Source: a virus. Taken from it: a DNA stretch of 38,764 bases. The notes beneath the pieces were generated by a model. The model did not search any database. It saw only the letters and a program-made list of their open reading frames with translations, and was not told the origin of the DNA. Shown one piece after another: positions 6,412 through 25,392 of the stretch (position 1 is the stretch's first letter; each line of letters begins with the position of its first letter). The stretch lies in the IMG/VR virus record IMGVR_UViG_3300009285_002221, positions 1 to 38,764 of that record; one strand, given 5' to 3'. Both the position numbers and the translations under genes were made by a program.

Positions 6412-6427
6412 AAAATGTACTTTTGAG

Positions 6428-6477
6428 TTATGCACAATTTTGGGTATGGATTTTTCTTTTGTTCTATAATGAAGAAA
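6428..6477 (+). promoter_or_regulatory. Leaderless promoter of the DnaA-like regulator with DnaA box
   Basis: A consensus -10 TATAAT (6465-6470) ends seven bases before ATG 6477. No good -35 is present; the 17-bp position reads GGGTAT. A perfect TTATGCACA (6428-6436) lies 5 bp upstream of that position. The weak -35 plus upstream box suggests activation or autoregulation. Confidence 0.65.
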
Positions 6478-7025
6478 TGGAAATTTATCGAAACAACATA
6501 CGCACGGCGGAAGTAAAATCACTTTATGGGGGAGCTAAATTTTGCAAAGAACACCAGAGAATTTATATCAATGAGTGTTGTGATTGCGGACTTGCCAAAA
6601 TACCGAGAATCAATAAAGGCAATGTTGTTCTGCAAAACATCCGAGCATACTACAAAAAAAATCCCTCTGCTTCGTGGAAAGAAATTTTTGAGAACACAGA
6701 ACATCACTACGGAACCCCCATCAGTCTTCTCTCTGCAATGTCTTTGCGAGGTTTCGCGCCACACGGAAGAAGCACAATCAGCCCCGAACAACTCGATAAC
6801 ATCGGGGATGCTCTCAAAGAAGCGGAGGCGTGCAGAAAAATAAAGAGCCGAACAAAAGAAAATGTCGAGCGTAAAGTAGAAATAGCTAAAACTCTTCACC
6901 ACAAACATAATCTGCGACCCGGAAAAATAGCAAAGCTCATGGGTAAAGACCGAACCACTATCATCTATTATCTAAAGCACTACAAAACCATAAAGAATTA
7001 TAAAAAACAGAAAAACACCCTATAA
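6477..7025 (+). CDS. DNA-binding regulator with DnaA domain IV-like C-terminus
   Basis: From ATG 6477 the product has 182 residues. The C-terminal part (about 128-172) reads KIAKLMGKDRTTIIYYLKHYK, close to the DnaA domain IV helix-turn-helix that contacts DnaA boxes (typical core G-x-D-H-T-T-V); here the His is Arg. The N-terminus has a Cys-rich cluster (C23, C34, C35, C37). There is no AAA+ domain, so it cannot be a replication initiator of DnaA type. The gene has its own terminator and a promoter carrying TTATGCACA, and TTATNCACA boxes recur at other promoters in the window. I infer a phage transcription factor that reads DnaA-type boxes. An upstream TTG at 6423 is less likely because it precedes the promoter. 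Confidence 0.6.
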   Translation: MEIYRNNIRTAEVKSLYGGAKFCKEHQRIYINECCDCGLAKIPRINKGNVVLQNIRAYYKKNPSASWKEIFENTEHHYGTPISLLSAMSLRGFAPHGRSTISPEQLDNIGDALKEAEACRKIKSRTKENVERKVEIAKTLHHKHNLRPGKIAKLMGKDRTTIIYYLKHYKTIKNYKKQKNTL

Positions 7026-7039: not shown

Positions 7040-7091
7040 ATTCACAACCCCCCCCTTGACATATGATAGTTTGTCTTATATTATGACTCAT
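7038..7091 (+). promoter_or_regulatory. Early operon promoter with DnaA box and C8 tract
   Basis: TTGACA (7056-7061), 17 bp, TATTAT (7079-7084) is a near-consensus sigma70 promoter. A perfect TTATTCACA box (7038-7046) lies upstream, separated from the -35 by A plus eight Cs (7048-7055). The predicted start is near 7091. It would drive the repressor gene and the replication operon. Confidence 0.85.
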
Positions 7092-7127: not shown

Positions 7128-7481
7128 ATGATAAAACCAACTACAAAAAGAGAGGGGGAGTTGTGGAAATACTGGAATGAGTACATTTTAGAAAATGATT
7201 ATTCCCCCGGCCACACAGAGGCCGCAAAAGAATTTAAGATTACAGTGCAAACCGTTCACACCCTTCTCCTGCGAATGCAGAAAAAGGGTTGGATGACAAG
7301 ATTAAATAAAACTAAAAGAAACTGGATTCCCACCACTCCCAAGAAAGATTTCCAAAGGGAAAAGTATCTTGAGAGTTTACGGGTTCAGTTTGATAAACTT
7401 CATGCCAAGAAAAACGAAGAATCAACCAATCATAGTACAACCGAAGGAAGGATTGCTGGTAAACGAAAAATCAAGCGATAG
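7128..7481 (+). CDS. LexA-like winged-helix repressor without peptidase domain
   Basis: The 117-residue protein resembles the LexA N-terminal DNA-binding domain. KREGELWKYWNEYILENDYS, then P-G-H-T-E-A-A-K-E-F, then TVQTVHTLLLRMQKKGWMTR follow the pattern of an open helix, 'sPt..eia' turn, recognition helix and wing. The rest is a basic tail; the Ser/Lys autopeptidase domain of LexA is absent, so cleavage-type induction is not expected. It is the first gene of the early operon and has the palindromic site in its own leader, a standard autoregulatory layout. I infer that it binds TTTAGTCAGCTAAA-type sites. Confidence 0.6.
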   Translation: MIKPTTKREGELWKYWNEYILENDYSPGHTEAAKEFKITVQTVHTLLLRMQKKGWMTRLNKTKRNWIPTTPKKDFQREKYLESLRVQFDKLHAKKNEESTNHSTTEGRIAGKRKIKR

Positions 7482-10640: not shown

Positions 10641-11522
10641 ATGAAGAATAGTAAAGAAGAAAAAGAAATTTTAACCTACACCTTACTTCTTCACGGGGCA
10701 AAGAAGGAGCTTGGAATTACGGCAAATGAATACATTGTTGCCGACACCATTTACCATTTATCTAACAACCCATCAAGTCCTATTCAGGGTTGGTGCTATG
10801 CCTCAAAAGAAACTCTTGCGAAGTATGTTGACGCCCAAAAGAGAAACGTACACAAAATGATAAACCGCTTGATTGAAAAAGGACTTGTTGAAAAGAACGA
10901 CGATACTAAACACCTCAAAACAACTCCAAAATGGTACTCGTCGGTTGTCTTAGTTAGAATGTCAAGAGATGTCCCTGATAGGGACGAAACGTCCCTATCA
11001 CAGGGACGAAACGTCCCCATAGATAGGGACGAAACGTCCCACAATATAGATATCTATAAGGATAGGATAAAGAATGAAAATTCTAAAAAAGAATTTTCTC
11101 TTCCTTCTCAAGCTTTAGGAGAAGAAAGAAAAGAGAAAAGTTCCGTTAAAAGAGAAAAGAAAGAAATAGGGGATTTTTCCCTTGATCCGGACGAGGATAC
11201 CATCCCCACCCGCAGTTTTCAGAAGCAAACCAAAGGTCGGAAGCAAATTGAGGAAAAAGAGAACACTGCTAAGTTCATTGATTGGTTTCCAAAGATATGT
11301 GGGCGATACGGGGTTCCCGCCCCCTATGTGAACAAAACAGAACGGATGATAGTCCAAAAAAACATAGCCGCATTACTGAAAGCAGGTTTCTCAATGGTCA
11401 AAATAGGCGAAGCCGCAGAGCGTTTCGTTGAAGAACAGTCAAAAAACAAAAACCCTCTTTCCATCCGTCCTCAAGTAGCAACAGGATCGGACGCGATGAA
11501 TAGGTGGCTTCAGAATCAATGA
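10641..11522 (+). CDS. Replication initiator (winged-helix, iterons within gene)
   Basis: The 293-residue protein has an N-terminal winged-helix domain (GITANEYIVADTIYHLSN, later WCYASKETLAKYVDAQKRNV with HKMINRLIEKGLVEK), as in phage replication proteins that bind origin DNA. A low-complexity, charged linker (about 113-200) follows, then a helical C-terminal domain (FIDWFPKICGRYGVPAPYVN, continuing to AAERFVEEQ), where DnaD/lambda O-like proteins contact the helicase. Residues 114-134 are encoded by three iterons, so the origin seems to lie inside the gene as in lambda O. Downstream genes encode a DnaB-type helicase and a primase zinc domain, consistent with a replisome loader role. Confidence 0.65.
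   Translation: MKNSKEEKEILTYTLLLHGAKKELGITANEYIVADTIYHLSNNPSSPIQGWCYASKETLAKYVDAQKRNVHKMINRLIEKGLVEKNDDTKHLKTTPKWYSSVVLVRMSRDVPDRDETSLSQGRNVPIDRDETSHNIDIYKDRIKNENSKKEFSLPSQALGEERKEKSSVKREKKEIGDFSLDPDEDTIPTRSFQKQTKGRKQIEEKENTAKFIDWFPKICGRYGVPAPYVNKTERMIVQKNIAALLKAGFSMVKIGEAAERFVEEQSKNKNPLSIRPQVATGSDAMNRWLQNQ
10981..11090. other. Candidate replication origin: three iterons plus AT-rich region
   Basis: GGGACGAAACGTCCC occurs exactly at 10981-10995, 11003-11017 and 11026-11040 (spacing 22 and 23 bp, about two helical turns). Each copy is itself a 6-bp inverted repeat around AAA. A partial copy (GTCCC) precedes at 10971. An AT-rich tract follows (11041-11100, starting ACAATATAGATATCTATAAG), suitable for unwinding. 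It lies inside the initiator gene. Confidence 0.75.
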
Positions 11523-12184
11523 AATACTTTAGCACCTTTTCGGGCGTAGGAGGAATGGAACTTCTATTCCCTAAAGACTGGGAGCTTGTGGGGTACAGCG
11601 AGTGGGACAAGTACGCTTCGATGGTTCATAAATATCACAAACCTAATATCAAAAACTATGGGGACATTAGCAAAATTCAATGGAGCGGAGTACCCGACTT
11701 TGATATGCTTACAGGTGGAAGTCCTTGCCAAAACTTCAGCATTGCCGGAAAGCGTGAAGGAATTGTGGGGAGCAAGTCCCGACTTGTTTGGGAGTTTATC
11801 CGTTGCCTCCATGAAAAACAACCAAAACATTTTATCTTTGAAAATGTTAAAGGATTGTTGTCTAGCAGAAATGGATGGGACTTTGCCAACATTCTCGTTG
11901 CATTTTCCGAAGAAGGGTATTCTCTCTGGTGGCAAGTTCTCAACGCCAAAGACTTCGGTATCCCCCAAAACCGAGAGCGCATCTTTGTCGTCGGTACTAG
12001 AGAAGGAAGTCCCAAAGAAGTATTTTTTGAGCCAAGCACAAACCGAAAAGATATTCAGAACCTTGAACATGGAGCAGGGCAAGCAAACAGGCGATACGAC
12101 ACCGCCGGAATCAGCCCAACCATTCCAACAGCAGGGGGGGGGGCGACATATCCCGATGATAGCGGCAGAAAGAGGAAGATATAA
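11519..12184 (+). CDS. DNA (cytosine-5) methyltransferase, N-terminal part, frame broken at poly-G
   Basis: From ATG 11519 (ATGA overlap with the initiator stop) this frame holds C5-methyltransferase motif I (FSGVGG, residues 7-12), motif IV GGSPCQNFS with catalytic C70, motif VI FENVKGLL and motif VIII QNRERIFVVG. After GISPTIPTAGGG it enters a run of ten Gs (12134-12143) and stops 14 codons later. The real continuation is in the next frame (RHIPMIAAERG...) up to a second G run, then in a third frame from 12337. Removing one G from each run restores a single enzyme of about 349 residues. It would methylate cytosine in phage DNA, giving protection from host restriction. A sequencing or assembly error is the alternative. 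Confidence 0.85.
   Translation: MKYFSTFSGVGGMELLFPKDWELVGYSEWDKYASMVHKYHKPNIKNYGDISKIQWSGVPDFDMLTGGSPCQNFSIAGKREGIVGSKSRLVWEFIRCLHEKQPKHFIFENVKGLLSSRNGWDFANILVAFSEEGYSLWWQVLNAKDFGIPQNRERIFVVGTREGSPKEVFFEPSTNRKDIQNLEHGAGQANRRYDTAGISPTIPTAGGGATYPDDSGRKRKI
12134..12143 (+). repeat. G10 homopolymer tract (frameshift point 1)
   Basis: Ten Gs between GCA and CGACATATC. With nine Gs the frame would read A-G-G-G-R-H-I-P-M-I, a normal C5-methyltransferase sequence; with ten it is shifted. Confidence 0.9.
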
Positions 12185-12336
12185 AAATGGAAAAGCGGAA
12201 CAGATTTTGGAGATACGAGATGATGGAATTTCAAACACTATTACAAAAGTCGAGAAAGACAACCGATTGATTCTTAACATGCACACCTCTGCACGAAACC
12301 CAAAAAGAAAGACAACGAACAGGGGGGGGGCGTTCA
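12144..12336 (+). pseudogene. C5 methyltransferase, middle segment in shifted frame
   Basis: This segment has no start of its own. In the frame beginning CGA at 12144 it reads RHIPMIAAERGRYKNGKAEQ..., then GISNTITKVEKDNRLIL and ends at the second G tract in TTNRGG. It is the target-recognition side of the enzyme. It is expressed only if the first tract is one base shorter or if slippage occurs. Confidence 0.75.
12322..12330 (+). repeat. G9 homopolymer tract (frameshift point 2)
   Basis: Nine Gs between AACA and CGTTCAATG. With eight Gs the middle segment runs in frame into MDNKHTWDTYM at 12337. Confidence 0.9.
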
Positions 12337-12567
12337 ATGGACAATAAACATACTTGGGATACTTACATGATTAACGAACAAATAAGACGGCTCACCCCGC
12401 TAGAATGTGAACGGTTAATGGGCTGGCCGGACAATCATACGAAATATGGCATCAACGAAAAAGGAGAAAAGATTGAACTCTCCGATTCTCAAAGATATAA
12501 GATGTGCGGTAATGGATGTGTGCCTCAATGTGTTCAGTGGATAATAGAGAATGTTTTACCAACATGA
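12337..12567 (+). CDS. DNA (cytosine-5) methyltransferase, C-terminal part
   Basis: This 76-residue frame contains IRRLTPLECERLMGWPDNHT and YKMCGNGCVPQCVQWI, the motif IX and X region that closes the methyltransferase fold. It is in a different frame from the N-terminal part, after two G tracts. Alone it cannot be an enzyme. Its ATG may be just an internal Met of the full protein. It overlaps the helicase gene by ATGA. Confidence 0.75.
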   Translation: MDNKHTWDTYMINEQIRRLTPLECERLMGWPDNHTKYGINEKGEKIELSDSQRYKMCGNGCVPQCVQWIIENVLPT

Positions 12568-20448: not shown

Positions 20449-22200
20449 ATGAAGTCAACAAAACTATTGTTAGGCGTAAAAGCGCAGGAAAAAATACTGG
20501 CGGGAGTGAATAGGGTTTACGAACCCTTGAAGCTCGCTCTCGGCCCAAACTCCGCCCGTGCTCTCATGTACAACACATGGAACAGGGGGCCGAGAATGAC
20601 AGAAGATGGATATACTATTGCGGGAGTAATTGATCCCGAAGATGAGTTTGAGAAGTTAGTAAAAGATGCTTTTGAGGAAGCCGTTAAAAGAACCAATGAA
20701 GAAGTTGGCGATGGCACAACTTCTACGGCCGTAGTTGCCGGCGCCTTAATCAATGGCGGCTTCAACCTATTCTCTGGAAGGGAATTGGCTATTCGCGTTG
20801 AGGGTTCTCACGAAACCCCCAAAAAGGCGCGAAGGAAGATGCTCGAACTTTCTAAAGTAGTTCAGGAGAAGGTCAGGGCAAGGGCAAAGAAAGTAGAAAC
20901 GAAAGAAGAGCTTAATCAGATAGCCCTTATTTCTACCGGAGATGAGAAAGTTGCAAAACTCGTTTCCGATGTTGTTTGGGAGGTTGGTACGGATGGGTTT
21001 GTAGATGTCGTTGAAGGGTTTAAGGGAGAAATAGAAACAGAAATAATCAAAGGCGCAAGATTTCCTGCCAAACCAGCAGACCGGGCGTTTTTGAACAACA
21101 AAAAGAAGTTTCAGATGGTTGCTGAACAATGCGCGGTGGCCATCACCGATTACAAGATAGATAACGAGGCACAAGCAAGGGCGTATTTCGAGGGCATGCT
21201 TCGCAACAATAAAAAGGTTGTTGTTATAGCCCCGAATTTCTCCACAAAAGTCCTTCAAATGATTTATCAAACTGTGTTCAAGCCAGTGAAGCAAGGCGAT
21301 GCAATCGTTTTGCAACCAACCGGCATAGACATATACCCCATCAAAGCCCCCTCATTGAGAACGGAACAATGGGAAGACCTCTCCGTTTACTTCGGCGCTA
21401 ACTTTATTTCCGAAAAGTCAGGGCGCAAGCTAGAAAGCATTAAGGACGAGGACTTGGGCTTCGCTGAAAAAGTTGTAACAACCGATACAGAGGCAAGGGA
21501 AGACGCTATTGCTGTTGGAGGACGGGGATCACAGAGAAGGAAGGTGCAGATAAACAACAGCGAAATGGAGGCAACTTCTCCGCTAGAGGAGCGCATCGAA
21601 ACATTGAAAGCTCAAGTAGACGAGGAAAGGCAACAGTCATTTAAAAACCTGTTGCGTAGGCGCATCGCTTCTTTGGGGGCTGGAGTAGCGGTTATCAGGG
21701 TTGGTGCTTCTACACAAGCCGAGAGCTTACCGATGAAATTGAAAGTAGAAGACGCGCAATATGCTTGCAAGGCCGCTCTTCAAGATGGGTATGTTCGGGG
21801 AGGCGGGCTTTGCCTTAAAGATATAGCCGATGAGTTGGAAAAAGAGCGCCAGGACGCGCCTGCGTTCTTTTTGGAAGCCCTACGCGCACCCTATGAGCAG
21901 ATACAGACCAACAACGAGGAGCCGTTTGAGATTCCCGAAGATGTCATTGACCCCACAAAGGTCGTTTGTCAGATAGTTGAAAACGCCGTAGAAGTTGCCG
22001 CAAACCTCCTCACTGTCAAAATCCTCATTCCCGAAGTAGACGAGAAACCCCCCTACGAAGGGTATAAAGCAATAGCTAAAGAGCTTGCCATCTACAATAT
22101 GCTTTTCGCTCGCAAGGAGGGCATACAACGCGAAAATCTTGAAGAGATGCAAGCCGATCACGAAAGGGCGGCGTTTCAGCATAGGGATGAACTCCTATAA
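20449..22200 (+). CDS. Phage GroEL-like chaperonin
   Basis: The 583-residue protein has all three chaperonin domains. Equatorial signatures are VYEPLKLALGPNSARALM, MTEDGYTIAGV and NEEVGDGTTSTAVVAGALI (the Asp of GDGTT acts in ATP hydrolysis), with the second half RIASLGAGVAVIRVGASTQA, YACKAALQDGYVRGGGLCL and VVCQIVENAVEVAANLL. The apical region lies between about residues 190 and 370. It is longer than host GroEL and lacks the Gly-Gly-Met tail. There is no GroES gene in the window, as in other phages with a lone chaperonin, which can work as a single ring. It probably folds phage structural or replication proteins. The first 80 residues diverge most. Confidence 0.9.
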   Translation: MKSTKLLLGVKAQEKILAGVNRVYEPLKLALGPNSARALMYNTWNRGPRMTEDGYTIAGVIDPEDEFEKLVKDAFEEAVKRTNEEVGDGTTSTAVVAGALINGGFNLFSGRELAIRVEGSHETPKKARRKMLELSKVVQEKVRARAKKVETKEELNQIALISTGDEKVAKLVSDVVWEVGTDGFVDVVEGFKGEIETEIIKGARFPAKPADRAFLNNKKKFQMVAEQCAVAITDYKIDNEAQARAYFEGMLRNNKKVVVIAPNFSTKVLQMIYQTVFKPVKQGDAIVLQPTGIDIYPIKAPSLRTEQWEDLSVYFGANFISEKSGRKLESIKDEDLGFAEKVVTTDTEAREDAIAVGGRGSQRRKVQINNSEMEATSPLEERIETLKAQVDEERQQSFKNLLRRRIASLGAGVAVIRVGASTQAESLPMKLKVEDAQYACKAALQDGYVRGGGLCLKDIADELEKERQDAPAFFLEALRAPYEQIQTNNEEPFEIPEDVIDPTKVVCQIVENAVEVAANLLTVKILIPEVDEKPPYEGYKAIAKELAIYNMLFARKEGIQRENLEEMQADHERAAFQHRDELL

Positions 22201-24882: not shown

Positions 24883-25392
24883 CTAAAGATTCCTAAAATA
24901 ATATCCCCCCTCCTCGCTATAGTCATACATCAACTCACGCGCGGCATATTCCCAGTCTATGCACGTTTGAGGCCATACGGCGCTCTTATCAATACTCCCT
25001 AACTGCTCGGCCATATCCTGCGCGAACTCCTCATGGTTTACAAACTTACCGGCGAAAGCCTCCTCGAAGTCTTCAAGCTTCCCGATATTCAATGATAGAT
25101 AAGCCGCGACCGCTTCCGCTCCATGCTCATCTACTAGGCGCATTTCCTCCTCGTACTGCTCCGCCGCTCCCTCGTCCTCGTCATTCTCCGGCTTCCATTC
25201 CTTAAACTCGCGCACCGTCATATTACGCGCTACGAAAAACTCTTTTCCGACCCGCGCGTATGCACCATAGACCGGCTCGCCCTTGTCGTTGTGCGTTGTG
25301 GGCTCGCCGACAAGGAAAGCATCGGCGCGCATAATAGCAGGCGGCAACACTTCCAGCATTTCATTATATATCCGTTCTGGTATTTTTTTCAT
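24883..25392 (-). CDS. ArdA-like antirestriction protein
   Basis: The 169-residue acidic protein has the ArdA C-terminal pattern: AVAAYLSLNIGKLEDFEEAF, then AGKFVNHEEFAQDMAEQLG and CIDWEYAARELMYDYSEEGG with a final YYFRNL. ArdA mimics DNA and blocks type I restriction enzymes. The N-terminal part (LPPAIMRADAFLVGEPTTHN and onward) is a separate small domain seen with other phage antirestriction-like proteins. No Shine-Dalgarno is present upstream. Together with two phage methyltransferases this would give several layers of restriction avoidance. Confidence 0.75.
   Translation of the reverse strand: MKKIPERIYNEMLEVLPPAIMRADAFLVGEPTTHNDKGEPVYGAYARVGKEFFVARNMTVREFKEWKPENDEDEGAAEQYEEEMRLVDEHGAEAVAAYLSLNIGKLEDFEEAFAGKFVNHEEFAQDMAEQLGSIDKSAVWPQTCIDWEYAARELMYDYSEEGGYYFRNL

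Follow-up and report, generated by a model that had tools for sequence, protein, structure and literature searches.

A phage C5-cytosine methyltransferase gene broken by two poly-G tracts: a candidate for phase variation

A methyltransferase gene spread over three frames

The window, by which we mean the whole stretch of DNA analyzed here, is a single metagenome contig (IMG/VR virus record IMGVR_UViG_3300009285_002221, positions 1–38,764). This 38,764-base genome is tailed-phage-like, with genes for a terminase, UvsX, a DnaB-type helicase, and a GroEL-like protein; the last, a phage-encoded chaperonin at 20449–22200, matches PF00118 (9e-25) and PHROG 5725. The gene under study, at 11519–12567, is flanked by a replication-initiation gene (upstream) and the DnaB-type helicase gene (downstream). 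Its ATG (11519) overlaps the stop codon of the upstream replication gene, and its final stop codon overlaps the ATG of the helicase gene (12564). Given these start/stop overlaps with both neighbors, 11519–12567 is built as one cistron of a replication operon. Its parts are as follows:

11519–12133, + strand: N-terminal part of a C5-cytosine methyltransferase, motifs I–VIII (PF00145, 1.8e-55; PHROG 116, 1.9e-64)
12134–12143, + strand: G10 (tract 1), in the glycine loop of the target-recognition segment (SPTIPTAGGG followed by RHIP); one G over the joining frame
12144–12321, + strand: second-frame stretch separating the tracts (RHIPMIAAERGRYKNGKAEQILEIRDDGISNTITKVEKDN..), a variable/target-recognition segment homologous to target-recognition (TRD) segments of relatives
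12322–12330, + strand: G9 (tract 2), one G over the joining frame; an ATG (12337) follows 6 nt later
12337–12567, + strand: C-terminal part, motifs IX and X (IRRLTPLECERL..SDSQRYKMCGNG), in the third frame (PF00145, 3.4e-9; PHROG 116, 1.1e-20)

The frame starting at 11519 is open until 12184, the inter-tract segment lies in the next frame, and 12337–12567 forms the third. Frame 1 carries the motifs FSGVGG, GGSPCQ (catalytic), ENVKG, and QNRERIF, and frame 3 carries RRLTPLECERL and QRYKMCGNG. Motifs I–X are thus complete and in canonical order, as in a C5-cytosine DNA methyltransferase (PF00145). PF00145 matches the first and last parts as separate hits when the frames are left unjoined; a protein joined across both junctions gives a single match, with residues 1–345 covering the whole profile (1–322) at 231 bits. 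A preliminary description of this locus, which had placed all C5-methyltransferase motifs in three frames, is confirmed on this point. The closest solved structure to the N-terminal part is M.HhaI (1.3e-37). The segment at 12144–12321 is homologous to the TRD segments of seven related loci (L003, L058, L063, L077, L078, L082, and L105), and the C-terminal part is 58–62% identical to its relatives. Outside the tracts, 11519–12567 contains no frameshift, no stop codon, and no lost motif. The part after the tracts has a pN of 0.25–0.30, with pS saturated; judging by this pN, the downstream part remains under selection.

The two tracts are the only + strand runs of at least eight G in 38.8 kb, and a first-order model predicts 0.16 G runs of at least nine in the whole window. 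Both frame changes fall within them, one in G10 and one in G9, exactly where they had been located before; i.e., at each change a homopolymer of at least eight inside the ORF sets the frame. In the main ORFs, GGG accounts for 145 of 623 glycine codons, and neither of the two other triple-glycine sites consists entirely of GGG. A related locus, L009, writes the same loop peptide, PTIPTAGGGRHIP, as GGC GGG GGC, without a homopolymer, meaning that the protein sequence does not require one. RNA folding across the tracts gave no unusual structure (z 0.26). Elsewhere in the window, a C8 run at 7048–7055 (G8 on the minus strand) lies between ORFs 6423–7025 and 7128–7481 and is a possible second length-variable site.

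The junctions were scored against relatives, and one G fewer was preferred at both tracts with moderate support. At tract 1, this reading scored 33.5 bits vs 28.1 for the next-best one. At tract 2, the shift-by-one reading scored 42.7 bits and was tied with another, so that the one-G-fewer reading there rests mainly on the frame of downstream motif IX. The proposal that removing one G from each tract restores the frame agrees with the joined PF00145 match and, at moderate strength, with the junction scores. The description of each tract as one base too long agrees with a joining frame that needs one G fewer, with the qualification that this length is defined only modulo 3.

Related methylases with and without G runs

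To survey relatives without bias, close phage C5-methylases were collected by protein, and a tract was defined as a G run of at least 7 between motifs VIII and IX. Genes without such a run were intact in 69 of 70 cases; those with one were broken in two of four cases, or three of five including the window. Breakage was associated with G runs whether the window was left out (Fisher p 0.007) or included (0.0006). L004 and L006 (both G9) shift frame at the tract, and in L011, L104, and L130 (all G9) and in L003 (G7) it is in frame. The related runs occupy equivalent TRD glycine loops. In L006, the tract occupies a loop like that of the window (GIAPTTPTGTGGG followed by VMTKIAIIRGR); the L011 tract is in a different recognition segment, where L006 has AEPGDSINLS without a run. 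Within the family, tracts have thus arisen in more than one position.

Among more distant loci, junction scoring places the break at the G run in L100 (G10), L106 (G8), L132 (G8), L139 (G9), and L154 (G10), as well as in L141 (G7) and some of the five L115 tracts. Pattern scans for G8 yielded 6 additional viral loci near motif VIII and 48 near motif IX, together with two bacterial MAG loci. Replacing G8 with C8 before motif IX yielded 0 loci vs 48, a control of limited value given that the region encodes Gly-Gly. Searches of GenBank phages returned no near relatives for the window, L100, L105, L115, or L116, and two partial matches for L099. Two other arrangements were seen in this family. At L009:5500–5660, the methylase ORF is open, with its recognition segment GNRVYSKKGLSPTIPTAGGGRHIP encoded in a different frame; the segment looks as though it had been replaced through a pair of compensating indels. 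At L008:7–1350 and the end of L005, HNH-endonuclease-like +1 frames, noted by eye, lie inside the methylase gene, whose own frame is open throughout.

Not all frame breaks coincide with G runs. In the survey, 27 of 31 tract-bearing relatives were broken, many of them elsewhere than at the run. We rejected the full 27 of 31 as support because in many the G run is in frame and the break lies at a conserved site other than poly-G (L108, L113, L123, L131, L137, L140, L142, L144, L147, L152, and others), and junction-by-junction scoring was used in place of the raw count. The conserved site is a +1 break, found in ~18 loci before a TKSRRAxN..ETW recognition segment, with the adjacent G8–G9 mostly in frame:

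L108:2969–3010: +1 segment
About 17 further loci with the +1 segment: L107, L113, L120, L123–L125, L129, L131, L132, L134, L137, L140–L142, L144, L146, L147, L152, L154

In nearly all loci where both frames are readable, WxTKSRRAxNxxDxETWxxGGVxPTLNAFDN is +1 to the upstream methylase frame at the same site (immediately after DLVV), and a start codon often lies just within the +1 segment. This conserved break looks like a split enzyme or a programmed shift.

The preliminary description had also called for tract lengths to be compared in related phages, and differences were found in homologous genes of other phages, the search output possibly leaving out near relatives of the window phage itself. 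Six pairs of near-identical phages with tracts were available, the members of each pair coming from different metagenomes. Five of the six have identical tract lengths (G8–G9), several carrying two G9 tracts each. The sixth, L115 and L148, is 99.95% identical over 7,895 bp, with two substitutions and two single-base gaps. One gap is in the methylase tract (G9 in L115, G10 in L148, with G9 in frame), and the other is in an intergenic C7/C8 run. Since the pair also differs at this intergenic run, homopolymer miscalls in one of the assemblies are possible. In less similar relatives (~82–88% identical), L141 has G7 where L108, L123, and L142 have G8 in frame. The second tracts of L101 and L103 differ by substitutions and have the same length, and no further contigs of that phage with other tract lengths were found beyond those two. 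The agreement in length between independent assemblies argues against a general homopolymer error, and the differences between relatives argue for mutable tracts.

Probable phase variation and alternative explanations

We consider it probable, from the sequence comparisons, that 11519–12567 encodes an orphan phage C5-cytosine methyltransferase, phase-variable through slipping poly-G tracts, with a predicted anti-restriction role. Comparison with related phages supports phase variation as the best reading of the gene because relatives lacking a tract are intact, those with one are found both in and out of frame, and the members of one near-identical pair are one G apart. Both tracts, which lie inside the target-recognition region, would gain or lose single Gs by slipped-strand mispairing at replication. 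In the ON state, with G9 at tract 1 and G8 at tract 2 (or lengths equal modulo 3), a full enzyme of ~348 residues would be made and would methylate phage DNA, most likely as a shield against host restriction. The tract lengths found in the contig would turn the gene OFF: translation would end at 12184, upstream of motifs IX–X and what remains of the recognition region. Switching would presumably change the methylation state of virions, and its selective reason would probably be protection of part of the progeny from host restriction. The tracts, the frames, the intact motifs, the tracts of relatives in and out of frame, and the length differences between relatives are seen directly in the sequences; that the phage population switches, that the enzyme is active, and that it counters restriction we infer. 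The 38,764-base window also contains an MT-A70 methylase gene, which, with an ArdA-like ORF, fits an anti-restriction set. The ArdA-like ORF (24883–25392, − strand) is a weak match to PF07275 (E 2.2e-5, slightly below the curated cut-off).

Several points weigh against phase variation. First, both tracts must be in frame, i.e., the gene would be ON in 1 of 9 cases if lengths were random; this double requirement would make ON uncommon, except if tract 2 can be tolerated as the boundary of a split enzyme. Second, five of the six near-identical pairs are unchanged. Third, many broken tract-bearing genes break at the +1 site. Fourth, the G9/G10 difference of L115 and L148 may stem from homopolymer miscalls. 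The original suggestion of a phase-variable phage methylase is thus upheld in part, by tracts of relatives in and out of frame and by the G9/G10 pair; the need for two tracts in frame would make ON rare, and a recent loss or an M.AquI-like split at tract 2 are less likely alternatives.

The tracts might instead be assembly or sequencing errors, their true lengths being G9 and G8 and the gene simply ON. We disfavor this explanation as unlikely. Runs of G are prone to errors, the window is known as a single metagenome contig, and L115 and L148 differ at two homopolymers simultaneously; against this, the five pairs of independent same-phage assemblies agree at G8–G9, including those with two G9 tracts each, A8 runs in the window (1967, 6654, and 17014) sit in intact ORFs, and all but one of the 70 relatives without a tract, drawn from the same collection, are intact.

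It is rather improbable that the gene was recently lost, the tracts being ordinary mutational hot spots and switching not being selected. Both window tracts are out of frame and broken copies are common among tract-bearing relatives, as expected from such a loss. By contrast, the gene has no frameshift, stop, or lost motif beyond the tracts, the part after them retains motifs IX–X and a low pN, its stop codon still overlaps the start of the next gene, and several relatives have a G9 in frame.

Finally, the gene could encode separate polypeptides, or pieces linked by slippage during translation or transcription, that assemble like M.AquI, with poly-G perhaps serving as a Shine-Dalgarno-like sequence for ATG 12337. 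In M.AquI, one subunit contains motifs I–VIII and part of the variable region, and the other contains the distal variable region and motifs IX–X (PMC3404938). The window gene resembles this division: motifs I–VIII and IX–X are on separate overlapping frames, with the break in the variable region. ATG 12337, 6 nt past tract 2, overlaps the stop codon of the middle frame (12345–12347), and with tract 1 in frame, this is the M.AquI subunit layout. The conserved +1 break in about 18 other loci also resembles such a split. However, M.AquI is a natural two-subunit enzyme, whereas the window gene breaks in slippable G runs into three pieces. With tract 1 at G10, the recognition segment falls in a third frame and needs a third polypeptide (possibly from ATG 12156); a start codon just past the tract is absent in L004 and L106, and the majority of relatives have one uninterrupted frame. 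We regard a split or recoded enzyme as unlikely.

Known systems and implications for phages

Phase variation has been studied as a bacterial strategy, and phage methylases are generally taken to be fixed anti-restriction genes. In the literature searched, we found no phage-borne phase-variable methylase; bacterial cases are known. Methylase genes of Helicobacter pylori carry two homopolymer tracts, and switching has been shown (PMC3936762). In the Type IIG gene JHP1272 / HP1353-HP1354, as in the window, two homopolymer tracts put a methylase gene out of frame; activity returns once the frames are restored, and tract length varies among strains (PMC3936762). The two systems differ in that the H. 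pylori gene is on a bacterial chromosome and encodes a Type IIG adenine methylase-nuclease, whereas the window gene is a phage C5 methylase. Moreover, the second tract changes specificity in H. pylori, whereas in the window catalytic motifs IX–X follow it, and switching, shown in H. pylori, is predicted for the window phage. Phage orphan (multispecific) C5-cytosine methyltransferases (PHROG 116/PF00145) share with the window gene their family, motif order, glycine-rich recognition segments in the variable region, and location in the replication module. The tract-free members found here are single intact ORFs, unlike the window gene with its three frames.

Poly-G also occurs in phage methylases of other classes, at the following positions:

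L115:1800 and 2921; L004:4016; L104:2486: poly-G in other methylases (D12, MT-A70, PF05869 Dam)

The frame changes at a G9 in the D12 adenine methylase gene of L115. A G9 in the PF05869 Dam-type gene of L004 is in frame, as are the G8 runs in the MT-A70 genes of L115 and L104. A G11 tract in L105 is in a non-methylase gene. The occurrence of poly-G in several methylase classes is a pattern seen in single cases, not a measured enrichment. Phages may, as a tentative generalization that we hold at somewhat less than even chances, commonly keep contingency loci in their DNA-modification genes, with poly-G in the recognition loops of C5, Dam, D12, and MT-A70 methylases. Bursts would then contain differently methylated virions, a bet-hedge against unknown host restriction systems. 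If phages switch methylases at random by poly-G slippage, one lineage would have several methylation states, with consequences for host range and phage typing as well as for phage-host matching by methylation marks.
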